Assembly: GCA_016930175.1 (NCBI GenBank)
Contig: JAFGHJ010000014.1
Coordinates: 1 to 55,110 of the forward strand
Length of the DNA stretch: 55,110 nucleotides
Origin: Caldifarciminota bacterium
GTDB taxonomy: Bacteria; Hydrothermota; UBA3072
Reading direction: 5' to 3'
The notes under the pieces are model-generated. The model had not been told where the DNA came from, did no database searches, and saw only the letters and a program-made list of their open reading frames with translations. Both the position numbers and the translations under genes were made by a program. Shown here in pieces: positions 4,841 through 27,063 of this stretch (position 1 is its first letter; each line of letters begins with the position of its first letter).

Positions 4841-4850
4841 GCCTTGTTAT

Positions 4851-10905: not shown

Positions 10906-11918
10906 ATTTTCCTACCCACTACTTTTGCTATGTTTTTTATATCATCCATTAAATTTTGGAAAGTCTCAGGTGTAATGGACTGTTTTCCATCAGATAGGGC
11001 TTGAGACGGCTGAGTGTGAACTTCTATCAGTAAACCATCAGCTCCTGCTGCTATTGCTGCTCTTGCGAGTGATGGAACGTATTTATTGTTACCTGCCGGG
11101 TGACTCGGGTCTACGATTATAGGCAAGTGGCTCAGTTCTTTTATTACCGGTACTGTGCTTATGTCGAGAGTATATCTGGTGTAAGTTTCGAACGTCCTGA
11201 TGCCTCTTTCACATAATATCACATCGTGGTTTCCTTCGGCTTGTATATACTCGGCAGACATGAGCCATTCTTCGATAGTAGCGGAAATTCCTCTTTTCAA
11301 TAAAACGGGTTTATTAAACCTCCCGACGGTCTTTAATAGCTGGTAATTTTGCATGTTCCTGGCGCCTATCTGCAGAATATCTGCATATTTTGCAACAAGA
11401 GGAACATCGACTTCAGAGACAACCTCTGTTATTATCGAGAGACCAGTTTCTTCACGAGCTTCCGAGAGTATTTTTAATCCTTTTTCGCCCAGACCCTGAA
11501 AACTATAAGGCGAACTTCTGGGTTTGAATGCTCCGCCGCGGAGTATTTTTGCTCCTGCTTTTTTGACTTCTTTTGCAACCTGCAGTACAATTTTTTCGGA
11601 TTCCACGGAGCACGGCCCTGCCATTACTACTATCTCTTCGCCTCCGATCGTCTTACCGTTTACCTCAACAATTGTGTCTTCCGGGTGAAATTCTCTGCTG
11701 CCCATCTTAAATGGACTTAAAATAGGTGTGAGCCGCTCTACGCCGGGTAGTTGTTCAATTGATTGAGTTATTCTCTCTCTATCGGTTGCGCCTATTACGT
11801 GGATTACGGTCTTTTTTATTCCTTTGAAAATCTTAGCTTCGTAACCGAGTTCTTTTATTTTTTCTTTGACTCTGGTAATTTCTTTTTTTGTTGCGCTTGA
11901 AGACATCGTTATTATCAT
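10902..11918 (-). CDS. aroF: DAHP synthase with N-terminal ferredoxin-like domain
   Basis: The 338-residue enzyme condenses PEP and erythrose-4-phosphate, the first committed step of aromatic synthesis. I start at ATG 11918 because GGAGGG precedes it by a few bases and homologues begin M-I-I-x-M. An upstream in-frame start at 11963 lies in repeat DNA. Residues 1-68 form the ferredoxin-like regulatory domain seen in Thermotoga DAHP synthase, where tyrosine or phenylalanine binds. The barrel has G-P-C-S-V-E-S with metal ligand Cys103, then [19 protein letters not shown] and D-P-S-H-P. It follows trpA after a gap filled by an inverted-repeat element. Confidence 0.95.
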
Positions 11919-11940
11919 TTTCCCTCCACGGAATACTTGA

Positions 11941-12031
11941 ACCACAAAGTACACAAAGAGCACAAAGATTTAAAATATTTGTTTTTATTTTCTTCTTTTT
12001 TACGATTTATTGTTTTGTGATCTTGCGGTTG
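11941..12031. repeat. Inverted-repeat element between trpA and aroF
   Basis: The left arm ACCACAAAGTACACAAAG (from 11941) faces an imperfect, shorter right arm at 12013-12031 ending TCTTGCGGTTG. It is of the same degenerate family as the other gap elements. It sits inside the supraoperon, so transcription must pass through it or restart after it. I see no promoter of the TTGACA-N16 type here. Confidence 0.55.
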
Positions 12032-12036
12032 TATTT

Positions 12037-12822
12037 TCATTTTTGACGTTTTGTAGCTTCTTTAAAATTTGCTATGAGTTCTTTCAAATTTTCTTCGTTT
12101 TTGATGGCCTCGATTATGCGGCTTCCAATAATGACTCCATCAACTTTATCCCTGAGTGATTCGATTTGCTTCTGCGTTCCTATCCCGAATCCAAGTGCTA
12201 TTGGTGTTTCTGAATTTTTCTTTATGTCCTTTAAAAATTTATTGAGATACGCAGGCATTTTATTTCTTATACCTGTAGTTCCAAGGACAGAAACGCAGTA
12301 AACGAATCCTCGTGATTCTTGAATGATTTTTTTTCTTCTTTTTGGAGGTGTTGCAGGAGTGATTAGAAAAATTAGTTCTATATTGTAGTCTTTTGATAGT
12401 TCGATCCATTCGGATGCTTCCTCTATTGGTAAATCAGGTATAATTAGTCCGCTTACTCCGTTTTTATTCATGTCAAGTAGAACTTCTTCTTTGCCGTAAG
12501 CGAGTAATGGATTCAAATAACTCATGAAGACAACAGGAATTTTTATCTCGAGTTTTTTGAGATTGCCGATAATTCTTTTTAACGTGGTTCCTTTCATGAG
12601 TGAAACATGTGAAGATTCCTGTATGGTTGGTCCATCCGCTATAGGATCTGAAAAAGGTATTCCGATTTCAATGATATCGGCTCCGCTTTCTTCGAGCGTT
12701 TTTATAATTTTCAGAGATTCAGCGAGATTCGGAAAACCGCCCGTTGTATAAAGAATTAATGCGGTTTCATTTTTTTCTTTTAATTCCTGGAATTTCTCTG
12801 AAACGCTTATGGGGTTTAGCAT
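12037..12822 (-). CDS. trpA: Tryptophan synthase alpha subunit
   Basis: The 261-residue TIM barrel cleaves indole-3-glycerol phosphate to indole and glyceraldehyde-3-phosphate. The catalytic Glu52 ([10 protein letters not shown]) and Asp63 (I-A-D-G-P) match Glu49 and Asp60 of the Salmonella enzyme. It overlaps the end of trpB by seven bases, which fits translational coupling of the alpha2-beta2 complex. The gene order here is trpB then trpA, the usual one. Confidence 0.96.
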
Positions 12823-14018
12823 AAAACTCCTTCCACAATTTCCAGATCCTTATCTCCGCGCCCGGAAAGGTTAACAATAATTATAGATTCTCGTGACATA
12901 TCTTTTGCAATCTTTATTGCGTAGGCAACAGCATGTGAGCTTTCCAACGCAGGTATTATTCCTTCCGTTTGTGATAGTATGTTGAAAGCGTTTAAGGCTT
13001 CTTCGTCAGAAATTGCGGTGAATTCTACTATACCTTTGTCTTTAAGGTAAGAATGTTCCGGTCCTACCCCTGGATAATCGAGTCCCGGCGCAATAGAATG
13101 GGTTTCCGTAATTTGTCCGTCTTTATCCTGAAGAAGATAACTCATTGCCCCGTGAAGAGTTCCTATTCCTCCGGTGCACAGGCTTGCGGCGTGTTTTTTT
13201 GTATCGAGACCCAAACCTCCTGCTTCAACACCGACCATTTTAATATTATTTTCTTCTATGAAAGGATAAAAGATACCTATAGCATTGCTTCCTCCTCCTA
13301 CGCAGGCTGTAATTACGTCAGGCAACCTGTATTCCTTTTCTAAAATTTGCTTTTTAGTTTCTTTTCCTATAACAGATTGAAAATCTCTAATCATCATAGG
13401 ATAGGGATGCGGTCCCACGACAGAACCGATGCAGTAGTGAGTGGTTTCCACATTGGTAACCCAATCTCTGATAGCCGCGTTGATTGCGTCTTTAAGAGTC
13501 TTTGAGCCCGAATCTACAGGTATTACTTCTGTGCCGAGAAGTTCCATTCTAAAAAGATTCATTTTTTGCCTTTTTGTATCTTCCGTCCCCATGTACACAT
13601 GGCATTCAAGGTCTAAAAGAGCGCAGGCTGTTGCTGTTGCCACTCCGTGTTGTCCCGCTCCTGTTTCGGCAATTATTCTTTGTTTTCCCATTTTCTTTGC
13701 AAGGAGTACCTGGCCGAGAGTATTGTTTATTTTATGGGCTCCCGTGTGCATCATATCTTCTCTTTTAAGGTATATTTTAGCGCCGCCTATTTTGTCGGTA
13801 AGTCTTTCTGCAAAATATAAAAGAGAGGGTCTTCCTGCGTACTCTTTGAGTAAGAAGTTTAATTCTTCTTTGAAATTTTTATCATCTTTAAGTGATAAAT
13901 ATGCTTTTTCTAATTCGTAAATTGCGTTCATTAGTACTTCGGGGACAAATCTGCCTCCGAATCTTCCGAAATAGCCTTTTTCGTCGGGTAAATTATATTT
14001 TGCCTTGTTTTTATCCAT
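12816..14018 (-). CDS. trpB: Tryptophan synthase beta subunit
   Basis: The 400-residue PLP enzyme joins indole and serine. Lys96 in H-T-G-A-H-K-I-N-N is the Schiff-base lysine; the phosphate loop G-G-G-S-N-A and the E-T-G-A-G-Q-H-G substrate loop are intact. Length and motifs are those of the TrpB1 type that works with TrpA, which follows directly. The ATG lies after a repeat-filled gap and has only a weak Shine-Dalgarno, unlike most genes in the operon. Confidence 0.97.
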
Positions 14019-14047
14019 TTTTTAGTTCACAACCCCCAACCTTTTTT

Positions 14048-14156
14048 AACAACAAATAGCACGAATATCACAAATGTGTTAATAATGTAATTGTCCTGAA
14101 CATGAAAAATAACAAATCTTTTTACTTTATTTGTGCTATTCGTGTGATTAGTTGTT
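14048..14156. repeat. Inverted-repeat element between aroQ and trpB
   Basis: The left arm at 14048-14075 (AACAACAAATAGCACGAAT at its start) and the right arm at 14129-14156 (TTTGTGCTATTCGTGTGAT region) are imperfect reverse complements around a 53-bp centre. Together they account for most of the 178-bp gap. Short open frames across it are made of the repeat arms and are not convincing genes. Confidence 0.6.
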
Positions 14157-14196
14157 TCTTTTACTTTTTTTATTTTCATAACTGAGCCCTTCGTTT

Positions 14197-14625
14197 TTAA
14201 TCTTTCCTCATTAAATACTCTAAAGCCAGTATGTAGCCATACCATCCGAGACCGCTGATTTGTCCTTCGCAAACGGGTGCGCTCATACTTATGTGTCTAA
14301 AATCTTCTCTTGCGTATATATTGCTCAAGTGAACTTCAACGGTAGGTATCTCCACTGCTTCAATTGCGTCCCTTATTGCAACGGAAGTGTGAGTGTATCC
14401 GCCAGGATTTATTACTATTGCGGCGTAGCTTTGGGCTTTCTGAATCGCGTCTACTATTTCCCCTTCTTCATTCGACTGTACTATTTCGACGTTTATATTG
14501 TTTTTTTCTGCGAATTTTTTTATCTCTTCGTTTATTTTCTCGAGGTTCATATTACCGTAAACTTCCACTTTTCTTTTTCCCAGAAGGTTGAGATTTGGTC
14601 CGTGAATCACAAGAAATTTTTGCAT
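14197..14625 (-). CDS. aroQ: Type II 3-dehydroquinate dehydratase
   Basis: The 142-residue enzyme dehydrates 3-dehydroquinate to 3-dehydroshikimate, the third shikimate step. The start motif G-P-N-L-N-L-L-G, catalytic Tyr23, N-P-G-G-Y-T-H-T (73-80) and V-E-V-H-L-S-N-I (His99) are all those of the dodecameric type II enzyme. It begins inside the end of aroKB (19-base overlap) behind GGGAGGT. Confidence 0.96.
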   Translation of the reverse strand: MQKFLVIHGPNLNLLGKRKVEVYGNMNLEKINEEIKKFAEKNNINVEIVQSNEEGEIVDAIQKAQSYAAIVINPGGYTHTSVAIRDAIEAVEIPTVEVHLSNIYAREDFRHISMSAPVCEGQISGLGWYGYILALEYLMRKD

Positions 14626-16196
14626 TCTACCTCCCTCATTATAATTTTTCCTATTCCAGTGGGAACAGGTAGTCTTATTTTTCCTTTTCTTACTTTTTTA
14701 TCTTGAGCCACATATTTTCTCATTTTTTTAGAATTCATATTTTTAGGTATTGAGGTTGGCAACTCATATCTTCCGATTAGTTTTTTTATTCTCAAAAAGT
14801 CCTTCTCACTAAGCATTTTTTCTTCCGCTGCTAATTCTGCCTCTTTTACCATTCCCATTGCTACAGCTTCACCGTGAGAATATCGTGAATATCCGCTGAG
14901 TGCTTCAATGATGTGTCCAATTGTGTGTCCGTAGTTTAACACTTCTCTAATTCCTTTTTCTTCTTTTTCGTCTTTTTCGACGATTCCTTTCTTTATTTTT
15001 ACACATCTTGTGACTATTTCTTCTAACAACTTAATATCTCGATTTAGAATTTCTTTCTGTTTTTTCTCCAGTATATCGAATAGGGTTGCATCATTTGCTA
15101 TTCCATACTTAATAACTTCCGATAGCCCGTTTCTGAATTCTTTTTCAGGAAGGGTTAAAAGTTTTTTTGTGTCGATTAAAATCATATTAGGCTGGTAGAA
15201 TGTCCCTATCATATTTTTACCAAGAGGATGATCAAAGCCGGTTTTGCCGCCTATAGAAGAGTCCACCTGTGCTATCAAAGAAGTTGGAACGTGTATAAGA
15301 GAAACACCTCTTTTTAATGTTGATGCAACGAATCCGGTAAGGTCTCCTACTACTCCTCCTCCCAGAGCTATTATACTTGCCGATCTGTCCATTTTTTCTT
15401 TTAAAAGAATATCGAAAATCTTTTTAATAGTATCGAATGTTTTATATTTTTCTCCGTCGGGAATTATACAAATTGTTGGCTTAACTCCTTGTTTTAATAG
15501 TATTTTTTCTAATTCGCTTATATATAAAGAACCGACCAATGGATTTGATATTATTGCCGCTTTGTCGGATTTAAATTCTAAATTAATTGTTGAATTATTC
15601 TTCCGTAAAATATCGTACCCAATATATATTGGATATACTTTGGATTCTGTTTTAACTATAAGTCTTTCAACGGTTTGTTTCTTAGTTTGTGTTTTAACTT
15701 CAAGATTTCTAATTATATTTTCCGATACTTGTTCGGGTGTAATTTCTGATGTATCTATTTTTAGATCGGCGGATTCGTAAATTCCTTTTTTCATTCTTTC
15801 GTTATATATCTTTAAGATATTGTTCTTTTTCTTTATTAAAGGCCGCGTTTTATCTTTTTTTAATCTGTTTTTTACTGCGTCTAAGTTAGTATAAAGGTAA
15901 ACGACTTTTCCTATCTGAGATAAAGTTTTTCTGTTTTCTTTATCTTTTACAACACCACCGCCAGTTGCAATGACGGCATTTTTGATATTTTTTATTTCTT
16001 TTAGTGTTTCTTTTTCTATTTTCCGAAAATATTTTTCACCAGATTTTTCAAATATGTCATTTATCGTCCTTTTTTCTTTAAGTACTATATAATCATCCAT
16101 AGAAAGAAAGGATAGGTTGGTTTTTTCCGCTATTTTTTGGCCAACGGAGTCTTTTCCCGACCCCATAAACCCTGTCAGCACAATGTTCTCAGGCAT
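14607..16196 (-). CDS. aroKB: Shikimate kinase / 3-dehydroquinate synthase fusion
   Basis: The 529-residue bifunctional protein covers two steps. Residues 1-170 are shikimate kinase, with P-loop G-F-M-G-S-G-K, D34/D35, Arg58, G-G-G at 79-81 and the R-P-L lid at 118-120. The P-loop residue after Lys15 is Asp16, where most shikimate kinases have Ser or Thr. Residues 178-529 are dehydroquinate synthase, with the NAD-site P-D-G-E-K (246-250), G-G-G-V-V-G-D and the metal motif N-Y-G-H-T-I-G-H. Thermotoga is known to carry the same fusion order. It overlaps the end of aroC by eight bases. Confidence 0.95.
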   Translation of the reverse strand: MPENIVLTGFMGSGKDSVGQKIAEKTNLSFLSMDDYIVLKEKRTINDIFEKSGEKYFRKIEKETLKEIKNIKNAVIATGGGVVKDKENRKTLSQIGKVVYLYTNLDAVKNRLKKDKTRPLIKKKNNILKIYNERMKKGIYESADLKIDTSEITPEQVSENIIRNLEVKTQTKKQTVERLIVKTESKVYPIYIGYDILRKNNSTINLEFKSDKAAIISNPLVGSLYISELEKILLKQGVKPTICIIPDGEKYKTFDTIKKIFDILLKEKMDRSASIIALGGGVVGDLTGFVASTLKRGVSLIHVPTSLIAQVDSSIGGKTGFDHPLGKNMIGTFYQPNMILIDTKKLLTLPEKEFRNGLSEVIKYGIANDATLFDILEKKQKEILNRDIKLLEEIVTRCVKIKKGIVEKDEKEEKGIREVLNYGHTIGHIIEALSGYSRYSHGEAVAMGMVKEAELAAEEKMLSEKDFLRIKKLIGRYELPTSIPKNMNSKKMRKYVAQDKKVRKGKIRLPVPTGIGKIIMREVECKNFL

Positions 16197-17331
16197 TTTT
16201 AATCCTTTCGATGTAAAAGTCGTAATTTGCTTTTATGTCTTTCATTACGTCTGAGCCGAATTTTTCGAGATATGCATTGGTTAATACATACGCCATCATA
16301 TTTTCGGCAATTACACCCGCAGCAGGTACAACACAAACATCTGCTCTTTCCTTTTGTGCTAAACTATGTTTTTTTGAAATTATATCTACCGACTCGAGGG
16401 GAGAGGATAGGGTAGGGATTGGTTTTAAATATATTCTTACCGTTATGTCTTCTCCGTTACTTATGCCTCCTTCTATTCCTCCCGCGCGGTTGGTGGACCG
16501 ATAGAATCCCTTTTTTCGAGAATAAAATATTTCATCCTGTACGTCTGAGCCGAATTTTTTCGCGTTTTTAACACCTTCTCCTATTTCTACTCCTTTAGCA
16601 GTTGGTATAGACATCATGGCACTTGCAAGGTAAGAGGTCAGGCGACGGTCAAAGTGTGCATGACTTCCAATACCCAGACATACTCCCTTCGCTATGATTT
16701 CACTTACACCGCCCAGAGAATCTCCTTTTTTCTTCGCTTCATCTATCAATTTGATCATTTCTTTTTCTGCAACCGGGTCGGTGCACCGTAAGGGACTATC
16801 TTCTATTTTGTCGAATGTTTTCACCGGTTTCTTTATACTGATTTTACCGATAGAGATGGTATGAGAGTAAATATTTATTCCAAATTCTGCCAGAAAGAGT
16901 TTGAAGATGGCTCCAGCTGCAACTCGCGCGGCGGTTTCTCTTGCGGAAGCTCTTTCGAGAATGTCTCTTATATCGGTACGGTCATATTTAAATATGCCCG
17001 GCAGGTCGGCGTGACCGGGTCTCGGCGAAGTAATTATTTTGTTCGGCGTGCCTTTTTCGGTTTTCATTAGATCTTTCCAGTTTTCAAAATCCTTATTTTT
17101 TATCTGTATTGAGATTGGTGAACCGATAGTTTCTCCGAATCGGACACCTGACAAAATTTCCACCTTATCGCTTTCGATTTTCATCCGGCTACCCCTTCCA
17201 TAGCCTTTCTGTCTGCGGGAGAGTTCTTTATCGATAAAGTCAGGATTGATTTGTAACCCTGCCGGGACACCTTCGACTATAAGGGAAAGAGCTTTACCGT
17301 GTGATTCTCCGGAAGTTATTAATCTAATCAT
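16189..17331 (-). CDS. aroC: Chorismate synthase
   Basis: The 380-residue FMN-dependent enzyme makes chorismate from EPSP, the branch compound for all three aromatic amino acids. Family motifs are clear: G-E-S-H-G-K-A near the start, the R-R-Q-x-G-Y-G-R-G block, R-P-G-H-A-D, E-R-A-S-A-R-E-T-A and the late N-R-A-G-G-I-E-G-G-I-S-N-G. The length fits the Bacillus-type enzymes of about 380-390 residues, which may need a separate flavin reductase. It overlaps aroE by four bases. Confidence 0.96.
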   Translation of the reverse strand: MIRLITSGESHGKALSLIVEGVPAGLQINPDFIDKELSRRQKGYGRGSRMKIESDKVEILSGVRFGETIGSPISIQIKNKDFENWKDLMKTEKGTPNKIITSPRPGHADLPGIFKYDRTDIRDILERASARETAARVAAGAIFKLFLAEFGINIYSHTISIGKISIKKPVKTFDKIEDSPLRCTDPVAEKEMIKLIDEAKKKGDSLGGVSEIIAKGVCLGIGSHAHFDRRLTSYLASAMMSIPTAKGVEIGEGVKNAKKFGSDVQDEIFYSRKKGFYRSTNRAGGIEGGISNGEDITVRIYLKPIPTLSSPLESVDIISKKHSLAQKERADVCVVPAAGVIAENMMAYVLTNAYLEKFGSDVMKDIKANYDFYIERIKNA

Positions 17332-18101
17332 ATCTCAAAACCTATTGCCTTTTTCATGACGTCGATGGGAGCATCCTGTCCCGTCCATATAGTAAAAGCA
17401 CGCGCACCCTGTAAAATGAGCATTAAGCTGCCATTTACCACTTTAACCCCCTTTTGTTTCTTTACCTGGAATTTATAATTTATATCATAGTAAACAGAAT
17501 TCTCTTTCATTAAGGTTAGAATTTTATCCTGGAGATCGACCGGTGTCGCGTTTAAGATGACGTCAGATTCCGAAGCCATCTTTTCAACGTCGTCAGAAAA
17601 GATTCTATCAGCCTGATAAATTACGCTGAGTTTTTTTGCTTTTTCTTCTACTATATCTGTTATTATAAATCTTGAGGGATTCTTCTGATTTATTATGTAT
17701 GAACATGCATACGCGACTCCGCCCGCTCCTATGAGCATAACTTTTTTTCCCTCGAGGTCGATTTCGTATTTGTTCAGAGACTCTTCGAAACCGTAGGTAT
17801 CTGTATTGAACCCTTTAAGTTTGTTTTCATCAATCAAGACAGTATTTACGGCGTCAATTGCGGTCGCATCTATAGAAATCTCATCGAGATATTCCATTAC
17901 TTTCTTTTTATAAGGAATTGTGATGTTGAACCCTCTAAAATTAAGAGCTGAAAGTCCAAATACCGCTTCTTTTAGTTTTTCTTCTTTTACGGGAAGAGCC
18001 ACATACATGCCGTCAATTCCCAACGCTTTGAAAGCCGCGTTATGCATTGGTGGAGAGAGAGTTATTTTCAAAGGATAACCTATTATTCCCGTGACTAACA
18101 A
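17328..18101 (-). CDS. aroE: Shikimate dehydrogenase
   Basis: The 257-residue enzyme reduces 3-dehydroshikimate to shikimate with NADPH. Substrate-site residues Ser16 (T-L-S-P-P-M-H-N), Lys65 (T-I-P-Y-K) and Asp101 (G-F-N-T-D) are present, with a Rossmann motif G-A-G-G-V-A at 125-130. The C-terminal Q-G-A-R-A-F-x-I-W-T-G is normal for AroE. Its start overlaps the end of trpF by seven bases. Confidence 0.95.
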   Translation of the reverse strand: MLVTGIIGYPLKITLSPPMHNAAFKALGIDGMYVALPVKEEKLKEAVFGLSALNFRGFNITIPYKKKVMEYLDEISIDATAIDAVNTVLIDENKLKGFNTDTYGFEESLNKYEIDLEGKKVMLIGAGGVAYACSYIINQKNPSRFIITDIVEEKAKKLSVIYQADRIFSDDVEKMASESDVILNATPVDLQDKILTLMKENSVYYDINYKFQVKKQKGVKVVNGSLMLILQGARAFTIWTGQDAPIDVMKKAIGFEI

Positions 18102-18709
18102 GATCTGACCTCCTCAATAAATCTTTTGACCTTTTCTTTATCCTTCTTGCCATAGTCTTTTTCAACGCCAGTAGAAACGTCTACTCCGTAAGGGTGTAAG
18201 TCTCTTATGACATGTTTTACGTTATCGGGAGTAAGTCCGCCGGCAATTATGAGAGGTTTATCGATTCCACGCGCTATATCCCAGTTGAATGTTTTTCCGC
18301 TTCCTCTTCCCGGATCGAGAATAAATGCAGAGACCGAGTAGTTTTGCATTTTTTCTATTAATGTTTCTTTTGTGTCGTTTTCGTTTACATGGATCCCTTT
18401 TATTACTTTTCTGTTAACCTTATCGCAATACTCGCAAGTTTCTTTGCCGTGAAGCTGGACTGTATCAATAAAAGCATATTCGGTAATTTCATTTACTTCA
18501 CTCAAGGCTGTGTTCATGAATATACCCACGGTAGTTATAAAAGGAGGCAGAATCCTAATTATTTCTCTAGCCTTATCGGGTGTAATTTTTCTTTTAGATT
18601 CTGCGAAGACAAAACCGATGGCGTCGGCTCCGAGATTCGAAACCATTATTGCGTCCTCTTTGTTTGTTACTCCGCAGATTTTTAATCTTGTTCTGAAGTG
18701 TCTATCCAT
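18095..18709 (-). CDS. trpF: Phosphoribosylanthranilate isomerase
   Basis: The 204-residue barrel enzyme isomerises N-(5-phosphoribosyl)anthranilate to CdRP in the Trp branch. The general base Cys12 lies in K-I-C-G-V-T; the general acid Asp is in I-L-D-P-G-R-G-S-G; the phosphate loops A-G-G-L-T and V-S-T-G-V-E are present. A true trpF and a separate hisA are both here, so no PriA-like dual enzyme is needed. It begins within the end of tyrA (28-base overlap). Confidence 0.95.
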   Translation of the reverse strand: MDRHFRTRLKICGVTNKEDAIMVSNLGADAIGFVFAESKRKITPDKAREIIRILPPFITTVGIFMNTALSEVNEITEYAFIDTVQLHGKETCEYCDKVNRKVIKGIHVNENDTKETLIEKMQNYSVSAFILDPGRGSGKTFNWDIARGIDKPLIIAGGLTPDNVKHVIRDLHPYGVDVSTGVEKDYGKKDKEKVKRFIEEVRSC

Positions 18710-19776
18710 CTTTTCCCATCTTTCATTATTTTGGTGAAGTCTTTTTTATTTCCTTTTAAAACTGATTCAATTACGTATTTCAAGGCCTGTTCCAATCTGT
18801 CGTATAAATCATTCTTAAAAGGATTGAATTTTTGTATCGCATAATAAAGGTCTGAATTCTCAGTTATCACTTCTTTTGTTGTCCCCATCTGGGAAACGAA
18901 AGTTGTACTCGCTACTTTTTTTAGCTCGGCGTAATCGTATTCACCGTCCATTAGTGCTTTCATAAATATTATATTTATTATATGAGATAAAGCTAAAACA
19001 TAGGAAATTATCCGGTCATGTTTTTTTAAAGGAATTTCTACTATTGTTGCGCTTGTGTCTTTAAAGAATGTTTTAACCTTTTCGGTCGCTTTTGTATTGC
19101 CGCAGTCACAAAGACATATTATTCTATCAGAAAGCGTGCTGACTTTTGGTCCAAACATGGGATGTATGCTTGTATAAGAAATACCGCACCTTAATGCTTT
19201 TTCAATAGCACTTTTTGAATTATCTTTCAGACTTGCAATGTCGAAAACCGTTCCTTTGAATTCTAGCTGTATAATTTTTTCGATAATTTCAGGCATAATT
19301 TCGAAAGGAACTGCGAGAAGAATACAGGAAGCTTCCTTAACTGCGTTAGCAAGGCTATCAAAGCTTTTAAAATGCTTTGATTTACCCTTAGTATCGTGAA
19401 TAAAAACATTATGTCCCTGGTTTGCGAAGAAATTAGCAAACCAAAGACCCATTTCTCCGAGACCTCCTATGATAAGAATATCTTCTTTATCGCCGCTGTA
19501 AGAGGAGTAGTGTAGAATTTCCTGCTGTATCTTTGATTCTGTTATTATATTCTGCATAATTGTTTTTATCAATTCTTGAGAAAGATTTTCTTCTGAAGCC
19601 ACTTCAAGTGCATTCTTTATCACTTCTTTTTCGACTTTCCAATCCTTCAAAGGTATTCCTTTCTTTTTCTTATTTCCGCCTATTTTTTTTGTTATGGAAA
19701 GTCTTTTGGCGATTAGTTTGATTATTTCTTTATCGACTTCTCTGACTTCTTTTCTGAGTTTTTCTATCTCGTTCAT
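18682..19776 (-). CDS. tyrA: Chorismate mutase / prephenate dehydrogenase fusion
   Basis: The 364-residue protein has an AroQ-type chorismate mutase at residues 1-88 (L-R-K-E-V-R-E-V-D-K-E-I-I near the start, K-x-I-G at 31-34). A prephenate dehydrogenase follows, about 92-364, with NAD motif G-G-L-G-E-M-G and H-P-M-F-G-P. This is the order of the enteric T-protein. It converts chorismate to prephenate and then to 4-hydroxyphenylpyruvate. It carries the only chorismate mutase in the window, so it must also feed PheA. A dedicated aromatic aminotransferase is absent; HisC may fill in. Confidence 0.94.
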   Translation of the reverse strand: MNEIEKLRKEVREVDKEIIKLIAKRLSITKKIGGNKKKKGIPLKDWKVEKEVIKNALEVASEENLSQELIKTIMQNIITESKIQQEILHYSSYSGDKEDILIIGGLGEMGLWFANFFANQGHNVFIHDTKGKSKHFKSFDSLANAVKEASCILLAVPFEIMPEIIEKIIQLEFKGTVFDIASLKDNSKSAIEKALRCGISYTSIHPMFGPKVSTLSDRIICLCDCGNTKATEKVKTFFKDTSATIVEIPLKKHDRIISYVLALSHIINIIFMKALMDGEYDYAELKKVASTTFVSQMGTTKEVITENSDLYYAIQKFNPFKNDLYDRLEQALKYVIESVLKGNKKDFTKIMKDGKRWIDTSEQD

Positions 19777-20552
19777 TTTCCGAGAAGTTCCTTTAGTTTA
19801 TTTCCTATATTTTGCTCTTTGATCAGAGTTTCACCCACAAGTACCGAATCAAAGCCTGCTTCTTCTAAAATATTTATATGTATTCTATTTTTAATGCCGC
19901 TTTCACTTACGGTTACATACTTTTCCGGAATGGATTTCTTTAAATCAGTAGAAATGTTGATGGAAGTCTGGAAGGTCTCTAAATTTCTATTGTTAATTCC
20001 AATTATTTCGGCCGAAGTCGCGAGGGCTTTTTGAAGTTCATTTTTTGAATCAATTTCAACAAGGCAATCCATCTTTAATTGGCGTGCCAGATTGATGAAT
20101 TTTTCTAACTGTACTAATTCAAGTATTTTTGCAATTAAAAGGATTGCGTCAGACCCAATATAGGCTGACTCATATATCTGGTATTCATCTATTATGAAAT
20201 CTTTTCTTAGTACCGGCAGATTTACTTCCTTTTTTACATCAGTCAGATGAGCATTACTTCCCCAGAAAAATTTTGAGTCGGTTAGAACTGAAATAGCGCT
20301 TGCGCCATTTTTTTCATATTCTTTCGCAATTTCTCTGTGGTCAAAATTTTCTCTGAGGAGTCCTCTGGACGGAGAATGTCTTTTTATTTCGGCTATGATA
20401 GAGATATCACCTTTTTTTAAAGCTGATTTAAAATCCCTTCTTTCTTTGGGTATCTTATCGTCGAAAGATTCAAGAGGAGTGAATTTTTTTCTCTTTTCTA
20501 TCTCTACTTTCTTAAAAGTTACTATCTTATCGAGAATAGTTTTTTGTCTCAT
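19773..20552 (-). CDS. trpC: Indole-3-glycerol phosphate synthase
   Basis: The 259-residue barrel closes the indole ring from CdRP. Catalytic motifs are I-A-E-I-K-R-x-S-P-S (Lys), L-R-K-D-F-I-I-D (second Lys), I-G-I-N-N-R-N-L and V-S-E-S-G-I. It is not fused to TrpF, unlike in enterics. It overlaps tyrA and trpD by four bases each, so a tyrosine gene sits inside the Trp block. Confidence 0.96.
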   Translation of the reverse strand: MRQKTILDKIVTFKKVEIEKRKKFTPLESFDDKIPKERRDFKSALKKGDISIIAEIKRHSPSRGLLRENFDHREIAKEYEKNGASAISVLTDSKFFWGSNAHLTDVKKEVNLPVLRKDFIIDEYQIYESAYIGSDAILLIAKILELVQLEKFINLARQLKMDCLVEIDSKNELQKALATSAEIIGINNRNLETFQTSINISTDLKKSIPEKYVTVSESGIKNRIHINILEEAGFDSVLVGETLIKEQNIGNKLKELLGK

Positions 20553-21559
20553 TTTGCTATTTCCACGAGTTTCTTAAGTGTTTTTAAAGCTTCTCCGGAA
20601 TCTATAGATTCTTTTGCTTTTTTTATTCCATCGGAGAGACTTTCGGCTTTTCCGGCAACATATATGGCAGCCCCTGAATTTAGTATCGTAACCTCTCTTT
20701 TTCCGCCAGTTCCGCCTTCCAGTAAATTCAAGGCTATTTCTGCATTCGTTTGCGGCGTTCCGCCTTTGAGGTCTTCTGGGTCTCTTTTAATCATTCCGAA
20801 ATCCTCAGGTGAAATTGTATATTCGGTTACTTTTCCGTCTTTTAATTCGCTCACGAATGTTTTTCCGGTTGTTGTGATTTCGTCGAGTCCGTCTTCGCCG
20901 TGAACTATCATACAATGTATAGAATCAAGATTGGAAAGTACATTAGCAATAGTGGTGGTCAGCTCTTTTGAATAAACCCCCAGTAGTTGTCTTTTTGCAT
21001 CCGCAGGATTTGTAAGGGGTCCGAGAATGTTGAATATAGTCCTTACAGCCATTTCTCTTCTTGGCCCTATCGCATATTTCATTGCCGGATGCAAAAGAGG
21101 CGCGAAAAGAAATCCGACTCCGGCTTCCTCTATGCATTTTTCGACTTTTTCCGGAGGATTTTCGATGTTTACGCCGAGTTGTTTAAGTAAATCGGCACTA
21201 CCGCAATTGCTTGAAACACTGCGGTTTCCATGTTTGGCTACCCTGCAGCCTGCTCCAGCCGCAACAATGGCGCTGATTGTCGAGATGTTAAAGGTACCTG
21301 CGCCATCACCGCCTGTTCCGCAGGTATCGATAAGATATTCCTGCGGGGCATTGATTTTCGTTACTTTGTCTCGCATCGCTTTAACGAATCCGGTAATTTC
21401 ATCTACCGTTTCACCTTTCATCCTGAGGGCAGTGAGTAAGGAAGCTATTTGGGCATCTGTTGTTTCTCCGCTCATAATATCAAGAGCAACTTTATACGCA
21501 TCGTCTTTATTTATATCTTCTTTGTTGATGGCTTTATTGATTGCTTCTTTAATGTTCAT
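20549..21559 (-). CDS. trpD: Anthranilate phosphoribosyltransferase
   Basis: The 336-residue enzyme transfers phosphoribose from PRPP to anthranilate. The signature G-T-G-G-D-G (about 85-90), K-H-G-N-R-S-V-S-S and the C-G-S-A-D segment are intact. It starts behind AAGGAGG placed in the last codons of the hisAIE fusion, giving an 11-base overlap. This is the junction where the his half of the supraoperon passes to the aromatic half. Confidence 0.97.
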   Translation of the reverse strand: MNIKEAINKAINKEDINKDDAYKVALDIMSGETTDAQIASLLTALRMKGETVDEITGFVKAMRDKVTKINAPQEYLIDTCGTGGDGAGTFNISTISAIVAAGAGCRVAKHGNRSVSSNCGSADLLKQLGVNIENPPEKVEKCIEEAGVGFLFAPLLHPAMKYAIGPRREMAVRTIFNILGPLTNPADAKRQLLGVYSKELTTTIANVLSNLDSIHCMIVHGEDGLDEITTTGKTFVSELKDGKVTEYTISPEDFGMIKRDPEDLKGGTPQTNAEIALNLLEGGTGGKREVTILNSGAAIYVAGKAESLSDGIKKAKESIDSGEALKTLKKLVEIAK

Positions 21560-22796
21560 CCCTTCGCCTCCTTAATTCTTCTATTACGTCACTTATTTTT
21601 ATATCATTTTTTGCAAGCATCACGGTTAAAAAGTATAATACGTCTGCTGCTTCCCAAATAATTTCATTTTTTTCTTTTGCTTCCACTATTTCTCCTGCTT
21701 CTTCTATTAGTTTTTTCTTTAGTTTCTTTGTGTTTAAAGTCGCAGTATATGAACCTTCAACCGGATTATTTATTCTATTTTTAACTACAACATATAGATC
21801 TTCTAATGAAAATTGCTTATCTCCGAAGCAGGAGTAATTGCCGAGGTGACAGGCAACGCCTTTTTGTTTGACAGTCGCAAGTAAGGTATCTTGGTCGCAG
21901 TCCGTCCTTATTTTAAGTAATTTTTGCGTATTTCTTGAAGTTTCGCCTTTCATCCAGAGTTTTTTCCTTGACCTTGAATAATAACACATATTTCCTGTTT
22001 CGAAAGCCTTTTTAAGAGATTCTTTATTCGAATATGCAAGCATTAAAACCTGACCGTTCTCATCTTCAGTTATTGTCGGAATTAATTCGTTTTTCCAATT
22101 CAATGACTCTATAAAACCTTCTATGAGAGATATTTTACCGGTGTAAAGAGCCATACCGAGCTGGACATCACAGCCCCATTGTGCTAATTTTCTTATCTCG
22201 GAAATTTTACTTACTCCTCCCGCGACAGTAACTTTATTGTCTGTTCTTTCCAAAAGTTTTTCTACGGTTTTAAAGTTAATTCCCTTAAGGGTGCCTTCTC
22301 TTTCTACGCAGGTAAATAAGTATTCTGAAGCGAAATTTTCTAATACCTCTGCTGCCCTGTAAAGAGAAATACCTGTAGGATGAGTCCAGCCTTTTGTTAC
22401 AATTTTTTCATTTAAAGCATCGATAGCTATTATAATGCTTTCTTTACCTATTTCTTTTTTTAAAGTTTTCAAGAAATTTTTATTTATTTTATCATTTTCA
22501 AAGGCTTTTGAGCCTATTATAACCTTTCTCGCTCCAAGAGAAATCATCTCTTTTGCTTTATCGACACTGCGGATTCCTCCTCCGACCCTGCATTCGGCTA
22601 TTTTCAATATCTCTTTGATGGTTTCGAGATTATCGCCCTTACCCATTGCGGCATCCAGGTCTATTACCGCTGTCTTGCCGTATTTGTTGAATTCTTCGGC
22701 AAGCTTTAACGGTTTATTATTTTCCAGCATTTTTTCTTTACCCTGCTTTAGCTGGACTGCTTTTCCTTTCATCAAATCAATTGATGCGACTATCAT
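21549..22796 (-). CDS. hisAIE: HisA-HisI-HisE trifunctional fusion
   Basis: One 415-residue frame holds three consecutive histidine enzymes. Residues 1-232 are HisA (ProFAR isomerase) with the two catalytic Asp at 7 and 126 and the E-G-T-L-K-G phosphate loop. Residues about 236-330 are HisI (PR-AMP cyclohydrolase) with the metal motif D299-C-D301-Q-D303 and Cys316/Cys323. Residues about 335-415 are HisE (PR-ATP pyrophosphohydrolase) with E365-E366, E369, E382 and D385. No stop or frameshift separates the parts and a short linker joins HisA to HisI. HisIE fusions are common, but HisA joined in front of HisIE is not an arrangement I know as standard. The protein would carry steps 2, 3 and 4, handing its product to HisF-HisH encoded just upstream. 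Confidence 0.94.
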   Translation of the reverse strand: MIVASIDLMKGKAVQLKQGKEKMLENNKPLKLAEEFNKYGKTAVIDLDAAMGKGDNLETIKEILKIAECRVGGGIRSVDKAKEMISLGARKVIIGSKAFENDKINKNFLKTLKKEIGKESIIIAIDALNEKIVTKGWTHPTGISLYRAAEVLENFASEYLFTCVEREGTLKGINFKTVEKLLERTDNKVTVAGGVSKISEIRKLAQWGCDVQLGMALYTGKISLIEGFIESLNWKNELIPTITEDENGQVLMLAYSNKESLKKAFETGNMCYYSRSRKKLWMKGETSRNTQKLLKIRTDCDQDTLLATVKQKGVACHLGNYSCFGDKQFSLEDLYVVVKNRINNPVEGSYTATLNTKKLKKKLIEEAGEIVEAKEKNEIIWEAADVLYFLTVMLAKNDIKISDVIEELRRRRDEH

Positions 22797-23545
22797 CGTA
22801 CACAGATCTCCTTTTTCTCGAGATATTCTTTTATCTCTTTAATTGTGTATTCGCCGTAGTGGAGAAGAGATGCAAGTAATACAGCATCAGCTTTTCCGTC
22901 TTTAACAGCATCGACCATTTGCTGTGGATTTCCTGCTCCGCCGGATGCAATGACCGGAATATTTACTATCTCGGATATTTTTGCGGTAAGTTCAAGGTCA
23001 TATCCTTCCTTTGTTCCGTCTTTATCTATAGAGTTGAGAAGAATTTCTCCTGCACCTAATTTTTCTCCTTCTTTTGCCCACTTAATTGCGTCTATTCCGG
23101 AATTATTTCTACCGCCGTGAGTGTATGCATACCAGGATCCATTGTGCTTTTTTGCGTCTATCGAAAGAACGATGCATTGTGAGCCGAAAATATTTGCCCC
23201 TTCGGTAATTAGCTCCGGATTCTCTATGGCTGAAGTACAAATAGCGACTTTATCGGCTCCCGAATTTAAAGCTTTTCTCATGTCTTCACTTGAACGCAAT
23301 CCTCCGCCGACGGTAAGAGGAATAAAAACTTCTTCAGACACTTTTTCGACCACTTCTATCAGGATTTCTCTGCTTTTGTACGATGCTCCTATATCGAGAA
23401 ATGTTAATTCATCAGCACCCTGTTCGTTATATTCTTTAGCCATTTCAACGGGGTCGCCTACATTATCCAGTTCTTTGAACTTAATTCCTTTTACAACTCT
23501 GCCAAAATCTACATCGAGGCAGGGAATAATTCTCGTTGCTAACAT
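22793..23545 (-). CDS. hisF: Imidazole glycerol phosphate synthase, cyclase subunit
   Basis: The 250-residue barrel takes ammonia from HisH and makes IGP and AICAR. Catalytic Asp11 (I-P-C-L-D-V) and the partner Asp in L-S-I-D-A-K are present, with Lys19 and the C-terminal phosphate loop A-S-G-G-A-G. The stop overlaps the hisAIE start by four bases and its own start overlaps the hisH end by seven, as expected for partner subunits. Confidence 0.97.
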
Positions 23546-24138
23546 GCTTCCGACCAGTTACTTAACATTTTTAGCCCGATTTTACCGCTTTTTTCCGGGT
23601 GAAATTGAACTCCAAAGATGTTCCCTTTTTCAATCATTGAAGTATATGTAATAAAGTAATCGGTTGTTCCCCTTATTATGTCGGTATCTGCGACTTCGAC
23701 ATAATATCCGTGCAGGAAATAGAAGAAAGATTTATCCTCAATTCCTTTTAATAGGGGGGACCCACTCACTATTTTTACCTGGTTCCAACCCATTTGGGGT
23801 ACTTTGCCTTCTACGAAGCGGGGGCATTTCCCTTTAAATATCCCGAAGCCCTTTGTGTTTTTAGATTCTAAACTTTCTTCGAAAAGCATTTGCATACCGA
23901 GACAGATACCGAGAAAAGGTTTATTTTCAAAAAGCCAATTGTAAGTAGCATCATAAAAGTTCGACTCTTTCAGTTTTTCTATAGCCGATCCGAAAGCTCC
24001 GACTCCAGGCAACACGATTTTATCGGCTCCGTTCAAGTCCTTGACTTCTTTTGCGATTATAGAGTCTTTTTTTAAATGATCGAAAGCTTTTTTTACCGAG
24101 TGCAGATTCCCAGCTCCGTAGTCAATTATCGCTATCAT
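23539..24138 (-). CDS. hisH: Imidazole glycerol phosphate synthase, glutaminase subunit
   Basis: The 199-residue class I amidotransferase delivers ammonia to HisF. The triad is Cys79 (G-I-C-L-G-M-Q), His180 and Glu182 (Q-F-H-P-E). The oxyanion P-G-V-G-A-F segment at 44-49 is the one typical of HisH rather than TrpG. It ends one base past the hisB stop in the tight his block. Confidence 0.97.
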   Translation of the reverse strand: MIAIIDYGAGNLHSVKKAFDHLKKDSIIAKEVKDLNGADKIVLPGVGAFGSAIEKLKESNFYDATYNWLFENKPFLGICLGMQMLFEESLESKNTKGFGIFKGKCPRFVEGKVPQMGWNQVKIVSGSPLLKGIEDKSFFYFLHGYYVEVADTDIIRGTTDYFITYTSMIEKGNIFGVQFHPEKSGKIGLKMLSNWSEAC

Positions 24139-24139
24139 T

Positions 24140-24727
24140 CTATATTTTTCCCTTTGTGCTTGGTATGTTTTCGGCTGCCTTTTTATCTTTTGAGCACGCC
24201 ATTTTCATAGCTTTACCGAAAGCCTTAAAAATAGCTTCTATTTTGTGGTGATCGCTTCTGCCGAAGGGCATTCTTACAACAATATTTGCGGAAAGAGCAG
24301 TCGCAAAACCCTGAAAAAAGTCTTCCAGAAGGTCGGTATCTAAATCTCCGCAAAATCTTCTTTTCAATTTTACGTCGAACTGAAGATAAGGACGTCCGCT
24401 GATATCAACTGCCACTACTGCGAGAGCTTCATCCATAGGATAAACGAAATATCCCGCTCTATTGATACCTTTCTTATTTCCCAGTGCTTTTTTGAAAGCT
24501 TCACCCAAAACGATACCGCAGTCCTCGACCAGATGGTGTTGATCTACCTCCAAATCTCCTTTTGCCTTCATCTTGATGTCGAAAAGCCCGTGTTTGGTGA
24601 AGTTTTCAATAGAGTGAGTCAAAAATCCAATCGGGTTTTTGATATCGTATTTGCCGCTGCCTTCGATTTCAAGGTCGAGTGTTATGTCGGTTTCTTTTGT
24701 TTTTCTTTCAATTTTAGCTTTTCTCAT
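24140..24727 (-). CDS. hisB: Imidazoleglycerol-phosphate dehydratase
   Basis: The 195-residue monofunctional enzyme dehydrates IGP. The two metal-binding H-H-x-x-E/D motifs are Q-H-H-L-V-E-D and D-H-H-K-I-E, with a central D-E-A-L-A. It lacks the N-terminal HAD phosphatase domain of enteric HisB, so histidinol-phosphate phosphatase must come from elsewhere; none is found in this window. Confidence 0.96.
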   Translation of the reverse strand: MRKAKIERKTKETDITLDLEIEGSGKYDIKNPIGFLTHSIENFTKHGLFDIKMKAKGDLEVDQHHLVEDCGIVLGEAFKKALGNKKGINRAGYFVYPMDEALAVVAVDISGRPYLQFDVKLKRRFCGDLDTDLLEDFFQGFATALSANIVVRMPFGRSDHHKIEAIFKAFGKAMKMACSKDKKAAENIPSTKGKI

Positions 24728-25775
24728 CCTGTAGTACCTCTTTTAATGTTTTAAGAAATATTTCATTCCCTTCGGGCTTTCCTATTGTTACTCGCAAAGT
24801 ATCTTTTAACCTCGGTGTATTGAAGAACCTTAATAGAACTCCTCTTCTATACATTTCTTCGAATAACTCTTTTCCGGAAATACTCTGTGTTTTGAAAAGA
24901 ATAAAGTTCGTGAAAGACGGTACGGGCTCAGTCGTTGGAATTCCTTTTAGTTCGGCGAAAACTTTTTCTTTTTCATCCAGAATTTTTTTAACAATGTTTT
25001 TTATATATTCGTTTTTCTTCAACAGTATTTCTCCGGCAATTTGCCCGAATATTCCCACCGAAAAAGGCAATTTTGCTTTCTGGACTGCGCTGGCTATTTC
25101 CGCATTGGTTAAAAGATACCCCAATCGGAGCCCGGCGAGTCCGAAGGCTTTTGATAATGTTCTAATTATGATGATATTATCGTATTTGTCCAGTAGGGAA
25201 ATTGCAGTTTTCTTAGAAAATTCATAATATGCTTCGTCTACGACGAGAATCCCATTTATGTTCTGCGCGATTTCTTCTATTTGTTCATTCGATATTGTGG
25301 TGCCGGTAGGATTGTTTGGGAGAGCAAGAACGACCAATTTTGCATCTTTGCCTTCTTTTATTATTGCCGCAACGTCGAATGAGAAATCTTCCAACAGCGG
25401 AACTTCGGCGAGGTTTAGATCCATAATTTGAGAAAGGTATGGATAGATTGCAAAGCCGGGTGAGATTGCAACAAGTTTATCACCTGAGTCGCAAATAGCC
25501 TGAAATATACCCTGAATTATTTCGTTTGATGCGTTTGCCGCTACAATTCCTTCCTTTGGAAAATTAGTATATTCTGAAATAGCTTCTACGAGCGGTATAG
25601 CGGTTCTGGACGGATACCTATTCCAATCTGTGTTCATCATTCGTTTAATAATTTCTTCTTTTAAGTCTTCCGGCACGTCATAAGGAGACTCGTTCTGATT
25701 CAGCTTTACTTTGTATTTATCCTGCGGCACGCTGTATTCTTTTAATTCTTGAATCGATTTTCTTATATATTTCAT
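24714..25775 (-). CDS. hisC: Histidinol-phosphate aminotransferase
   Basis: The 353-residue PLP enzyme transfers an amino group from glutamate to imidazole acetol phosphate. Family motifs include L-N-Q-N-E-S-P near the start, N-P-N-N-P-T-G, D-E-A-Y-Y-E-F and the PLP lysine in R-T-L-S-K-A-F-G-L-A-G. Since no tyrosine/phenylalanine aminotransferase is in the supraoperon, it may also act on the aromatic keto acids, as is known for the Bacillus enzyme; that is inference. Confidence 0.95.
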   Translation of the reverse strand: MKYIRKSIQELKEYSVPQDKYKVKLNQNESPYDVPEDLKEEIIKRMMNTDWNRYPSRTAIPLVEAISEYTNFPKEGIVAANASNEIIQGIFQAICDSGDKLVAISPGFAIYPYLSQIMDLNLAEVPLLEDFSFDVAAIIKEGKDAKLVVLALPNNPTGTTISNEQIEEIAQNINGILVVDEAYYEFSKKTAISLLDKYDNIIIIRTLSKAFGLAGLRLGYLLTNAEIASAVQKAKLPFSVGIFGQIAGEILLKKNEYIKNIVKKILDEKEKVFAELKGIPTTEPVPSFTNFILFKTQSISGKELFEEMYRRGVLLRFFNTPRLKDTLRVTIGKPEGNEIFLKTLKEVLQDEKS

Positions 25776-26620
25776 AACACCACCTTACTTATTTCGTATT
25801 CCAGTATATCTCTTGCCCCGTATTTCTTCAACTTAGGTATTAAATCAAGGACTTCCGATTTATCGACTGCGATTTTAACGGCATATCCTTCTTCTTTATA
25901 GAGTGGTGCGACTGTAGGTGAGCGCATACAGGGAAGAAATTTCACCAAACTTGTCAATTTTTCTGCCGGAACGTTCATTTCCAGCAGTACTTTCTTTCTT
26001 GCGTCCAGAACTGCTTTGAAAAGTATTTTTAGTTTATCTATCTCTTTTTTCCTCTTTTTCATAGATTCTTTATTGGCGATAAACCTTGTTGATGATTCCA
26101 TAACCGTATCTACTATTTTTAAATTGTGCTCGGTAAGTGTTAAACCTGTTGAAGTATTATCTATAATCATATCCGCGTCGTCGGGCGGAAAGACTTCTGT
26201 TGCTCCGTAAGTCCGCAGAAGGTCAAATTTGTATTTTTTCTTTTTTAGAAAGTCTCTGGATATATTTTCGTATTCGGATGCAACGATAATTTTTCTTTTT
26301 TGCAAATCTTTTATCGAATATTTCGACGGAATCGCGCTGACTATTTTTACAGGGTCTAATCCAAGATCCATGACCTCTACTACGTTGGCTTTTTCTTCTT
26401 TTATCCAATCGTACCCCGTAAAACCGATATCGCGGGCTCCCATTTCCACAAGTTTAGGAATATTTTGAGGTTTCATTATTTTTATATCGATTTCTTTATT
26501 GCTTACCTCCGGACGATAATTTCTGCTATCGGCTTTAAAATATATACCTGCGGAAACCAATAAATCCGCGACATTATCGTAAATTCTTCCCTTTGGAATG
26601 ACGATTTTTAATTTTTCCAT
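25772..26620 (-). CDS. hisG: ATP phosphoribosyltransferase, long form
   Basis: The 282-residue first enzyme of histidine synthesis joins PRPP and ATP. The length and the C-terminal region (about 205-282, ending in an ACT-like domain) mark the long form, which is feedback-inhibited by histidine and needs no HisZ. The phosphate motif in the D-x-I-I-D-N-T-S-T-G segment is present. It is the first structural gene of the 21-kb supraoperon. Its ribosome-binding site GGTGAG five bases before the ATG comes from the end of a dispersed repeat arm, and a 409-base leader separates it from the promoter. Confidence 0.96.
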   Translation of the reverse strand: MEKLKIVIPKGRIYDNVADLLVSAGIYFKADSRNYRPEVSNKEIDIKIMKPQNIPKLVEMGARDIGFTGYDWIKEEKANVVEVMDLGLDPVKIVSAIPSKYSIKDLQKRKIIVASEYENISRDFLKKKKYKFDLLRTYGATEVFPPDDADMIIDNTSTGLTLTEHNLKIVDTVMESSTRFIANKESMKKRKKEIDKLKILFKAVLDARKKVLLEMNVPAEKLTSLVKFLPCMRSPTVAPLYKEEGYAVKIAVDKSEVLDLIPKLKKYGARDILEYEISKVVL

Positions 26621-26625
26621 TTTTT

Positions 26626-26658
26626 CTCACCGCAAAGGCGCAAAGAGCGCAGAGGAAT
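26626..26658. repeat. Single CACCGCAAAG repeat arm supplying the hisG RBS
   Basis: One arm of the CACCGCA repeat family (CTCACCGCAAAGGCGCAAAG from 26626) abuts hisG. Read on the minus strand it ends GCGGTGAG, and GGTGAG (26631-26626) stands five bases before the hisG ATG. The arm contains its own small inverted repeat (GCGC..GCGC). Confidence 0.6.
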
Positions 26659-26820
26659 TTTTTGTTTTAATTTTTTTTGTCATCCCTGAATCGGAAAGAG
26701 AGAAGAAGATTTCCATCGTTTCTTTTTTGACGAAATTCTTCGTTTCACTGAAATTCAGCGTGGCTCTTTTATCTGGTTTTGTGTAATAGTTAAATACAGA
26801 AAAAAACATTTTTCTTACTC

Positions 26821-26876
26821 TCCGAGTTTCTAAATTTGCCCTTTCGTTAATTCTAACTTTAGGCTGTGAACTCGGA
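26821..26876 (-). promoter_or_regulatory. Hairpin overlapping the end of the leader peptide
   Basis: On the minus strand TCCGAGTT (26876-26869) can pair perfectly with AACTCGGA (26828-26821). Smaller nested pairings (GCC/GGC and GTTA/TAAC) are possible in the loop. The 5' arm lies in leader codons 52-54, just after the Tyr/Trp/His codons. A ribosome halted there would leave the arm free; one at the leader stop would cover it. Such an arrangement is that of an attenuator 2:3 helix. I found no matching terminator; the only T run is at 26806-26800, 14 bases past the stem. Confidence 0.55.
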
Positions 26877-27029
26877 TGTATTTTTGTTTTTGTGCCACCA
26901 GGAATAATAAAATATGTAGGGATAAACGTAATAACGACCTGCTCTTTGTGAAGGACTAAAAAATGACCTCCTGAGAGATTTTTGGATGCTCTTATTTATT
27001 GAATTAATTTTTGTATCGTTATTATTCAT
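26859..27029 (-). CDS. Aromatic/histidine leader peptide of the his-aro-trp supraoperon
   Basis: A 56-codon frame runs from ATG 27029 to TAA 26859 between the operon promoter and hisG. Residues 33-46 read Y-Y-V-Y-P-Y-I-F-Y-Y-S-W-W-H, so ten of fourteen codons specify Tyr, Phe, Trp or His, the four amino acids whose synthesis the operon encodes. Three further Phe lie at 23, 24 and 54. The start is 7 bases past the -10 box, so the mRNA would begin at or next to the ATG; no Shine-Dalgarno precedes it. Codons 20-21 (AGG AGG) make an internal Shine-Dalgarno-like sequence with no NTG start behind it. A hairpin arm overlaps codons 52-54. By analogy with the trp, his and phe leaders of enterics it should sense charged tRNAs by ribosome stalling. 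The composition is direct observation; the control is inference. Confidence 0.82.
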   Translation of the reverse strand: MNNNDTKINSINKSIQKSLRRSFFSPSQRAGRYYVYPYIFYYSWWHKNKNTSEFTA

Positions 27030-27035
27030 GACAGT

Positions 27036-27063
27036 AATATAGACAAAAGTTAGGACATGTCAA
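27036..27063 (-). promoter_or_regulatory. Promoter of the his-aro-trp supraoperon
   Basis: Reading on the minus strand, the -35 box TTGACA is at 27063-27058 and the -10 box TATATT at 27041-27036, with a 16-bp spacer. The predicted start is near 27029, the A of the leader-peptide ATG. The same -35, spacing and -10 occur before asnA (47248-47221), both preceded by CCCC. Confidence 0.75.

Follow-up and report, generated by a model that had tools for sequence, protein, structure and literature searches.

The pathways for histidine and for the three aromatic amino acids are separate and usually controlled apart, and the locus described here raises the question of whether one short leader peptide can report on both and regulate them as a unit. 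Within the window, by which we mean the whole 55,110-nucleotide stretch that was analyzed, the minus strand carries a predicted leaderless open reading frame (ORF) of 56 codons plus a stop (26859–27029), present as a single copy in its own genome. Its frame, coordinates, and sequence were re-derived, and its translation is MNNNDTKINSINKSIQKSLRRSFFSPSQRAGRYYVYPYIFYYSWWHKNKNTSEFTA, followed by the stop. Ten of the fourteen residues at positions 33–46 (YYVYPYIFYYSWWH; 26892–26933, minus strand) are Tyr (six), Phe (one), Trp (two), or His (one), exactly as an earlier note on this DNA had counted them, and these control codons have counterparts in relatives. As that note also placed it, the ORF lies between a sigma-70-like promoter (TTGACA-16-TATATT, 11 of 12 matches; 27036–27063, minus strand) and hisG (25772–26620, minus strand; TIGR00070), and the clustered codons specify the end products of the genes below, which NCBIfam names as histidine and aromatic genes. 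Histidine is represented by only one codon in this run, and we infer His sensing by the window copy mainly from the leaders of its relatives.

Below the leader, hisG opens a run of 22 his, trp, aro, tyr, and phe genes, 20 of which were scanned against NCBIfam, all matching the named families. The run continues on the minus strand with hisC, hisB, hisH, hisF, and a hisA-IE fusion (21549–25775; NCBIfam), followed by trpD, trpC, tyrA, trpF, aroE, aroC, an aroKB fusion, aroQ, trpB, and trpA (12037–21559; NCBIfam), and closes with DAHP synthase, pheA, aroA, trpE, trpG, and hisD (5568–11963). In this last block, the first four genes were assigned by NCBIfam, and trpG and hisD were named by ORF sequence and by synteny in relatives. 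Neighboring genes mostly overlap or almost touch; the longest gap, of ~180 nt between aroQ and trpB, may contain an internal promoter.

Taken alone, the composition of the window leader is suggestive. In composition-matched Markov intergenic DNA, 14-residue windows with at least ten Y/F/W/H residues occurred 32 times per 2.29 million, and eight of these held all four residues; for the window's own intergenic stretch, with ~500 such 14-residue windows, the chance is roughly 0.5–1%. Comparable Y/F-rich stretches are also present in other reading frames of the window. Composition, strict promoter, and leaderless start are jointly far rarer than composition by itself: 3 Mb of random DNA yielded four cases of the strict promoter with a leaderless start, none of them with a comparable aromatic/His ORF.

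The spacing of the promoter is informative about how the leader would be translated. Given that the leader ATG stands exactly 6 nt past the −10 hexamer, transcription is predicted to begin at the start codon itself, at or adjoining its A at position 27029. Among the ten leaders considered (that of the window, eight further ones described below, and a reduced one in the sister species G001), all ten have a 16-nt spacer between TTGACA-like and TATAAT-like hexamers, and nine have a −10-to-start distance of 6 nt, with either ATG or GTG as the start, the distance in G001 being 9 nt. When the WOR-3 loci were scanned on both strands, the strict promoter–start pattern was found at seven sites, all of which were leaders. 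These peptides are thus predicted to be translated from leaderless mRNA.

A comparison with 147 genomes supplies the evidence that carries the argument; the window is judged, by two matching contigs (those of G118 and G123 named below), to come from an uncultured bacterium of the phylum WOR-3. hisG of the window type or of a remote form was present in only 10 of the 147, and trpD in 10 genomes. The supraoperon order is shared with G074, G076, and G118 (up to the contig end; contig MUKB01000005.1), occurs in pieces in G117 and G123 (contig JAFGPO01), and is kept without hisG in G001; the contigs of G128 and G059 begin within the operon and were left out of the leader comparison. Eight further leaders were identified in five other WOR-3 genomes, two each in G074, G076, and G117 and one each in G118 and G123. 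All eight stand before his/aromatic genes, and seven of them end in HYWYW(H/R)F. The earlier note had proposed conservation of the aromatic/His codon cluster upstream of hisG as a test, and the cluster passed it in these five genomes, where the leaders end in NHNHPTFSFNHYWYWHFRAQ (G076), NHNHTTFHFNHYWYWHFRAQ (G074 and G117), PFVYFFNYFWHPGHCLGCH (G118), and NHFEHHYWYWRFRT (G123). Most of the leaders found belong to one genus.

Three genomes (G074, G076, and G117) have the operon in two halves, each with its own leader ahead of it. The second unit consists of DAHP synthase, pheA, aroA, trpE, trpG, and hisD, and the leaders of both halves in this genus (g51) end in FNHYWYW(H/R)FRAQ. A degenerate version of this ending, allowing up to two mismatches, was searched for in all 147 genomes and retrieved the six split-operon leaders, that of G123, and one match in G037 that carries two mismatches. 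The strongest single result of the analysis is that a second, separate transcription unit serving these four end products carries the same predicted sensor. Furthermore, the control codons are kept and the remainder of the peptide diverges: among the six leaders of genus g51, pairwise identity is 0–32% over codons 4–22 and 86–100% over the last 14 codons. The free third positions that the earlier note had anticipated are seen outside the hairpin arm described below, where the residue is fixed and the codon varies (CAC/CAT for His, TAT/TAC for Tyr), over two codon columns only. Inside the arm, two leaders have changed His to Arg (CAC to CGC) with retention of a G-U pair, so that this codon follows the hairpin more than it follows His.

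The leader of G001 is a point against reading these elements as attenuators, since the operon is kept (without hisG) and yet the leader, MINSIFLLKSKNLERRSLFIPPKREFFYLHFQ... (operon start, reverse strand of L118+L119), is reduced, with no Trp, one Tyr, and one His. Its reduction coincides with the operon that lacks hisG. A second, remote HisG-family protein is encoded in both sister genomes (L007 966–1959, minus strand, contig 27 of G000; L006 963–1971, minus strand, contig 1 of G001); the G001 copy matches PF01634 and may be used there in place of the operon hisG.

Operons of other content extend the comparison. In G050, also of WOR-3, an aromatic-only trpEGDCFBA-DAHP operon is preceded by two tandem leaders, MKTLRLLKIYYWYFRKSGGLGVEI and MMMPGSLPLYYYWFIRRGGGPGIMG, located before trpE (L126:8814–9057, contig 11, minus strand). 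Both contain Tyr, Trp, and Phe codons and no His, each is followed by an intrinsic terminator, and the first can also form an alternative pairing, GGGGGTCTGGG:CCCAGACCCCC. The region upstream of hisG in G050 yielded no His leader. Pure His leaders, such as MKRIFVSFHHHHHHTNSAGKG, precede the his operons of many Spirochaetes and one Calditrichia genome. In Treponema and relatives, these poly-His leaders mostly have 4–7 His codons and leaders of this kind lie upstream of hisG at L059, L073, L084, L045, L026, and many other Spirochaete or Calditrichia loci. Family f34 (G099, G102, and G104) showed no leader before its his operons. As read from these sequences, the codons of the predicted leaders follow the content of the operon, with Y/W/F before aromatic-only operons, poly-His before His-only operons, and all four in the combined ones, so that a single leader contains control codons matching several end products of its operon.

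Folding predicts two hairpins in the window leader, the second of which, like the leaderless start, was missing from the earlier note. The first, H1 (26929–27024, minus strand), pairs leader bases 6–15 (27024–27015) with 26938–26929, and its 3′ side corresponds to codons 31–34, where the control run begins. An equivalent pairing of the start codon region comprises 11–13 bp in five g51 leaders, in which the partner is the segment directly before the control codons; that of the window comprises 10 bp and uses different bases, and H1 as a leader element is suggestive only. The second hairpin, H2 (26821–26876, minus strand), pairs TCCGAGTT (26876–26869) with AACTCGGA (26828–26821) in the window; reaching up to 23 pairs among the leaders compared, it is the strongest structural element of the leader. 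Its predicted energy in the window is −17 kcal/mol (z −3.2); z ranges from −3.2 to −7.2 across four leaders, with −4.6 in G118, and the equivalents in G118, G123, and g51 are stronger than that of the window. H2 encloses the leader stop codon in g51, G123, and the window, where the stop lies in the loop, and ends just upstream of the stop in G118. Over a small set of seven sequences, six of them from one genus, the pairing is kept in 95.5% of cells, compared with 36–59% in slid controls, and G123 shows two compensatory changes from G-C to A-U.

Considering these features together, we regard a multivalent, leaderless ribosome-stalling attenuator as the best reading of the locus, and one that we hold with good confidence; very probably, the leader acts as a sensor by ribosome stalling and joins the two pathways. 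The ORF, the promoter spacing, the conserved control codons, H2, the presence of a leader for each transcription unit, and the match in content can be read in the DNA, and by analogy with known attenuators we infer stalling, the direction of the response, and an output step. Transcription would begin at the leader start codon, and the ribosome would load at the 5′ end of the mRNA and traverse the clustered codons for Tyr, Phe, Trp, and His. A shortage of any of the four charged tRNAs would stall it on the control codons, on or beside the 5′ arm of H2, and expression of hisG and the 22-gene run would rise. With all four amino acids plentiful, the ribosome would release at the stop within H2, H2 would fold, and downstream expression would be low.

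The position of H2 relative to a stalled ribosome is compatible with this scheme to differing degrees. In g51, G123, and G118, the 5′ start of H2 falls inside the last control codons, and a ribosome on these codons would cover the 5′ arm. In the window, the hairpin is weaker and more distant. The last control codon is separated from its start by ~18 nt, and only late stalls would contact it; a ribosome halted at the first Tyr codons would have no direct contact with it. Constrained folding with a modeled stalled ribosome indicates that late stalls cost about 20–30 kcal/mol of structure, and the long Tyr run of the window may act through H1 or another pairing.

How the folding of H2 would lower expression is the part of the scheme on which the alternatives differ, and that H2 mostly lacks a U-tract and reveals no consistent switch at the Shine–Dalgarno (SD) sequence also counts against the attenuator reading, whose output step is a predicted one. 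Rho-dependent premature termination is tentatively favored, since H2 has no U-tract behind it, the spacers of the relatives are C-rich and G-poor, and Rho is encoded in all seven genomes. Between H2 and the first gene, eight leaders of relatives have a C:G count of 103:33 versus 431:435 in controls (p about 1e-4, uncorrected for relatedness); the window spacer has 34 C and 28 G, and a C-rich bias is not clear there. The more specific proposal, that one leaderless peptide reads the four ring-bearing amino acids Tyr, Phe, Trp, and His and controls both full pathways as a unit through a start-codon hairpin and a stop-enclosing hairpin, without an intrinsic terminator, is one for and against which we find the balance even. 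To our knowledge, a layout of this type is undescribed among known attenuators.

Classical transcription attenuation, in which H2 or a later hairpin would serve as an intrinsic terminator opposed by an antiterminator as in the enteric trp and his operons, is doubtful for these leaders. It has a precedent within the phylum in the terminators of G050, and T-runs lie 4–14 nt past H2 in G076a, G074a, G117a, G118, and the window. However, no such T-run is found right past H2 in G074b, G076b, G117b, and G123, the T-run of a canonical terminator located at another site of the window directly abuts the stem, and a scan for intrinsic terminators on the minus strand of the window leader region was empty. 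Only in G050 was a hairpin with a U-tract directly behind it found ahead of the first gene. Since in most leaders no U-tract abuts H2, intrinsic termination was dropped as the general output. The idea of a four-amino-acid leader for the combined supraoperon, which the earlier note had advanced, is strongly supported by the five genomes, the duplicate leaders, and the match in content, whereas textbook terminator/antiterminator attenuation has no such support here, no canonical intrinsic terminator following the leader.

The chief alternative to Rho as the output is control of the first gene at the level of translation. As a full explanation, modeled on the leaderless poly-Cys leaders of mycobacteria, it holds that stalling exposes a hidden SD of the next gene, and we give it the same low standing as classical attenuation. 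It draws on a second small ORF of 60 codons (26627–26809, minus strand; MFFSVFNYYTKPDKRAT...), whose SD, GGAGAG, adjoins the 3′ arm of H2 and whose stop codon lies 6 nt before the hisG ATG; in G118, moreover, the SD of hisG pairs with a segment just past the leader stop. Against it, the 3′ arm of H2 contains no SD of the following gene in g51 and G123, and modeled stalling frees the SD of the first gene inconsistently across leaders; a uniform SD-masking switch was dropped for this reason.

The second small ORF begins with MFFSVFNYY, and five aromatic/His codons among the first nine have a probability of about 0.25% per ATG. It has no Pfam family above the cut-off, and no counterpart was seen in relatives; it may serve as a further leader, comparable to the tandem pair in G050, or else as a coupling ORF. 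A short dispersed repeat of the CTCTGCGCTCTTTGCGCCTTTGCGG type, present at several genomic sites including 26627–26654 and 4813–4841 of the window, supplies the segment just upstream of hisG.

It is very improbable that the ORF is incidental and that H1 and H2 form a protein- or tRNA-binding RNA element, such as a riboswitch, a T-box, or a TRAP-like site. H2 is indeed well conserved in g51 and G123, with pairing kept by compensatory changes, but the H2 sequences of G118 and the window are unrelated, although similarly placed, while the Tyr/Trp/Phe/His codons stay, and codon content differs predictably by operon type. Additionally, a comparison of the leader region with Rfam at gathering and relaxed thresholds returned no leader family and no T-box match. 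Finally, the view that AT-rich DNA merely yields Tyr/Phe-rich ORFs and that the leader is non-functional, to which the modest single-sequence odds and the Y/F-rich stretches in other frames lend some color, is untenable given that the leaders are conserved at the same place in five other genomes, are duplicated in each genome with a split operon, and have identical promoter spacing.

The preferred reading, a multivalent stalling attenuator, can be set against known systems. The earlier note held that known leaders each read one amino acid, which is incorrect: the enteric ilvGMEDA, ilvBN, and thrABC attenuators each have one leader with codons for several end products. The WOR-3 leader resembles these in being a multivalent leader for the operon below, and differs in that they serve one branched pathway, are SD-led, and have intrinsic terminators, whereas it joins histidine and three aromatic amino acids from separate pathways. 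If the reading is true, multivalent attenuation would no longer be confined to a single branched pathway but would span two separate ones, and cross-pathway control of histidine and the aromatic amino acids would have a simple basis at the RNA level. The natural series of His-only, aromatic-only, combined, and split operons makes the rule that codons follow operon content directly testable, leaderless leader peptides are indicated in WOR-3, and operon control in uncultured phyla becomes readable from sequence.

The aro-trp-hisC-tyrA-aroE supraoperon of B. subtilis is under TRAP control. Aromatic supraoperons with hisHb and predicted attenuators have also been described (PMC1173090, Table 7). 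Both resemble the WOR-3 locus in uniting aromatic genes and a his-type aminotransferase, and differ in having no full his operon and, in the sources consulted, no four-amino-acid leader. The ilvBNC leader of C. glutamicum, another multivalent one, comes close in form, with a start one nt from the transcription start, codons for several amino acids, and a 5′ hairpin shielding the start (PMC11857589). It shares with the WOR-3 leaders the leaderless, multivalent character and the hairpin at the start, and differs in responding to branched-chain amino acids, in its terminator hairpin, and in its unrelated peptide (PMC11857589). In S. meliloti, a trp gene is likewise preceded by a leader peptide, trpL (peTrpL), with a leaderless mRNA (PMC7298713); it belongs to a classical attenuator for a single pathway. 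Leaderless poly-Cys short ORFs of mycobacteria regulate the genes below them (Canestrari et al. 2020, cited in PMC9031893); as that citing account presents them, they resemble the WOR-3 leaders as leaderless short ORFs in which control codons are clustered, and differ in reading Cys only, in their translational output, and in phylum and operon. His leaders occur in Firmicutes as well, outside Proteobacteria (PMC9413887); these and the proteobacterial ones (Rfam His_leader) also place His codons before his operons, but they read His only, and the WOR-3 leader has no Rfam match. No leader joining His and aromatic codons was found in the open literature, most subscription papers lying outside the search. 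The general kind of leader is already known; the novelty lies in joining His to all three aromatic amino acids, in the reach across pathways, and in the absence of a canonical terminator.
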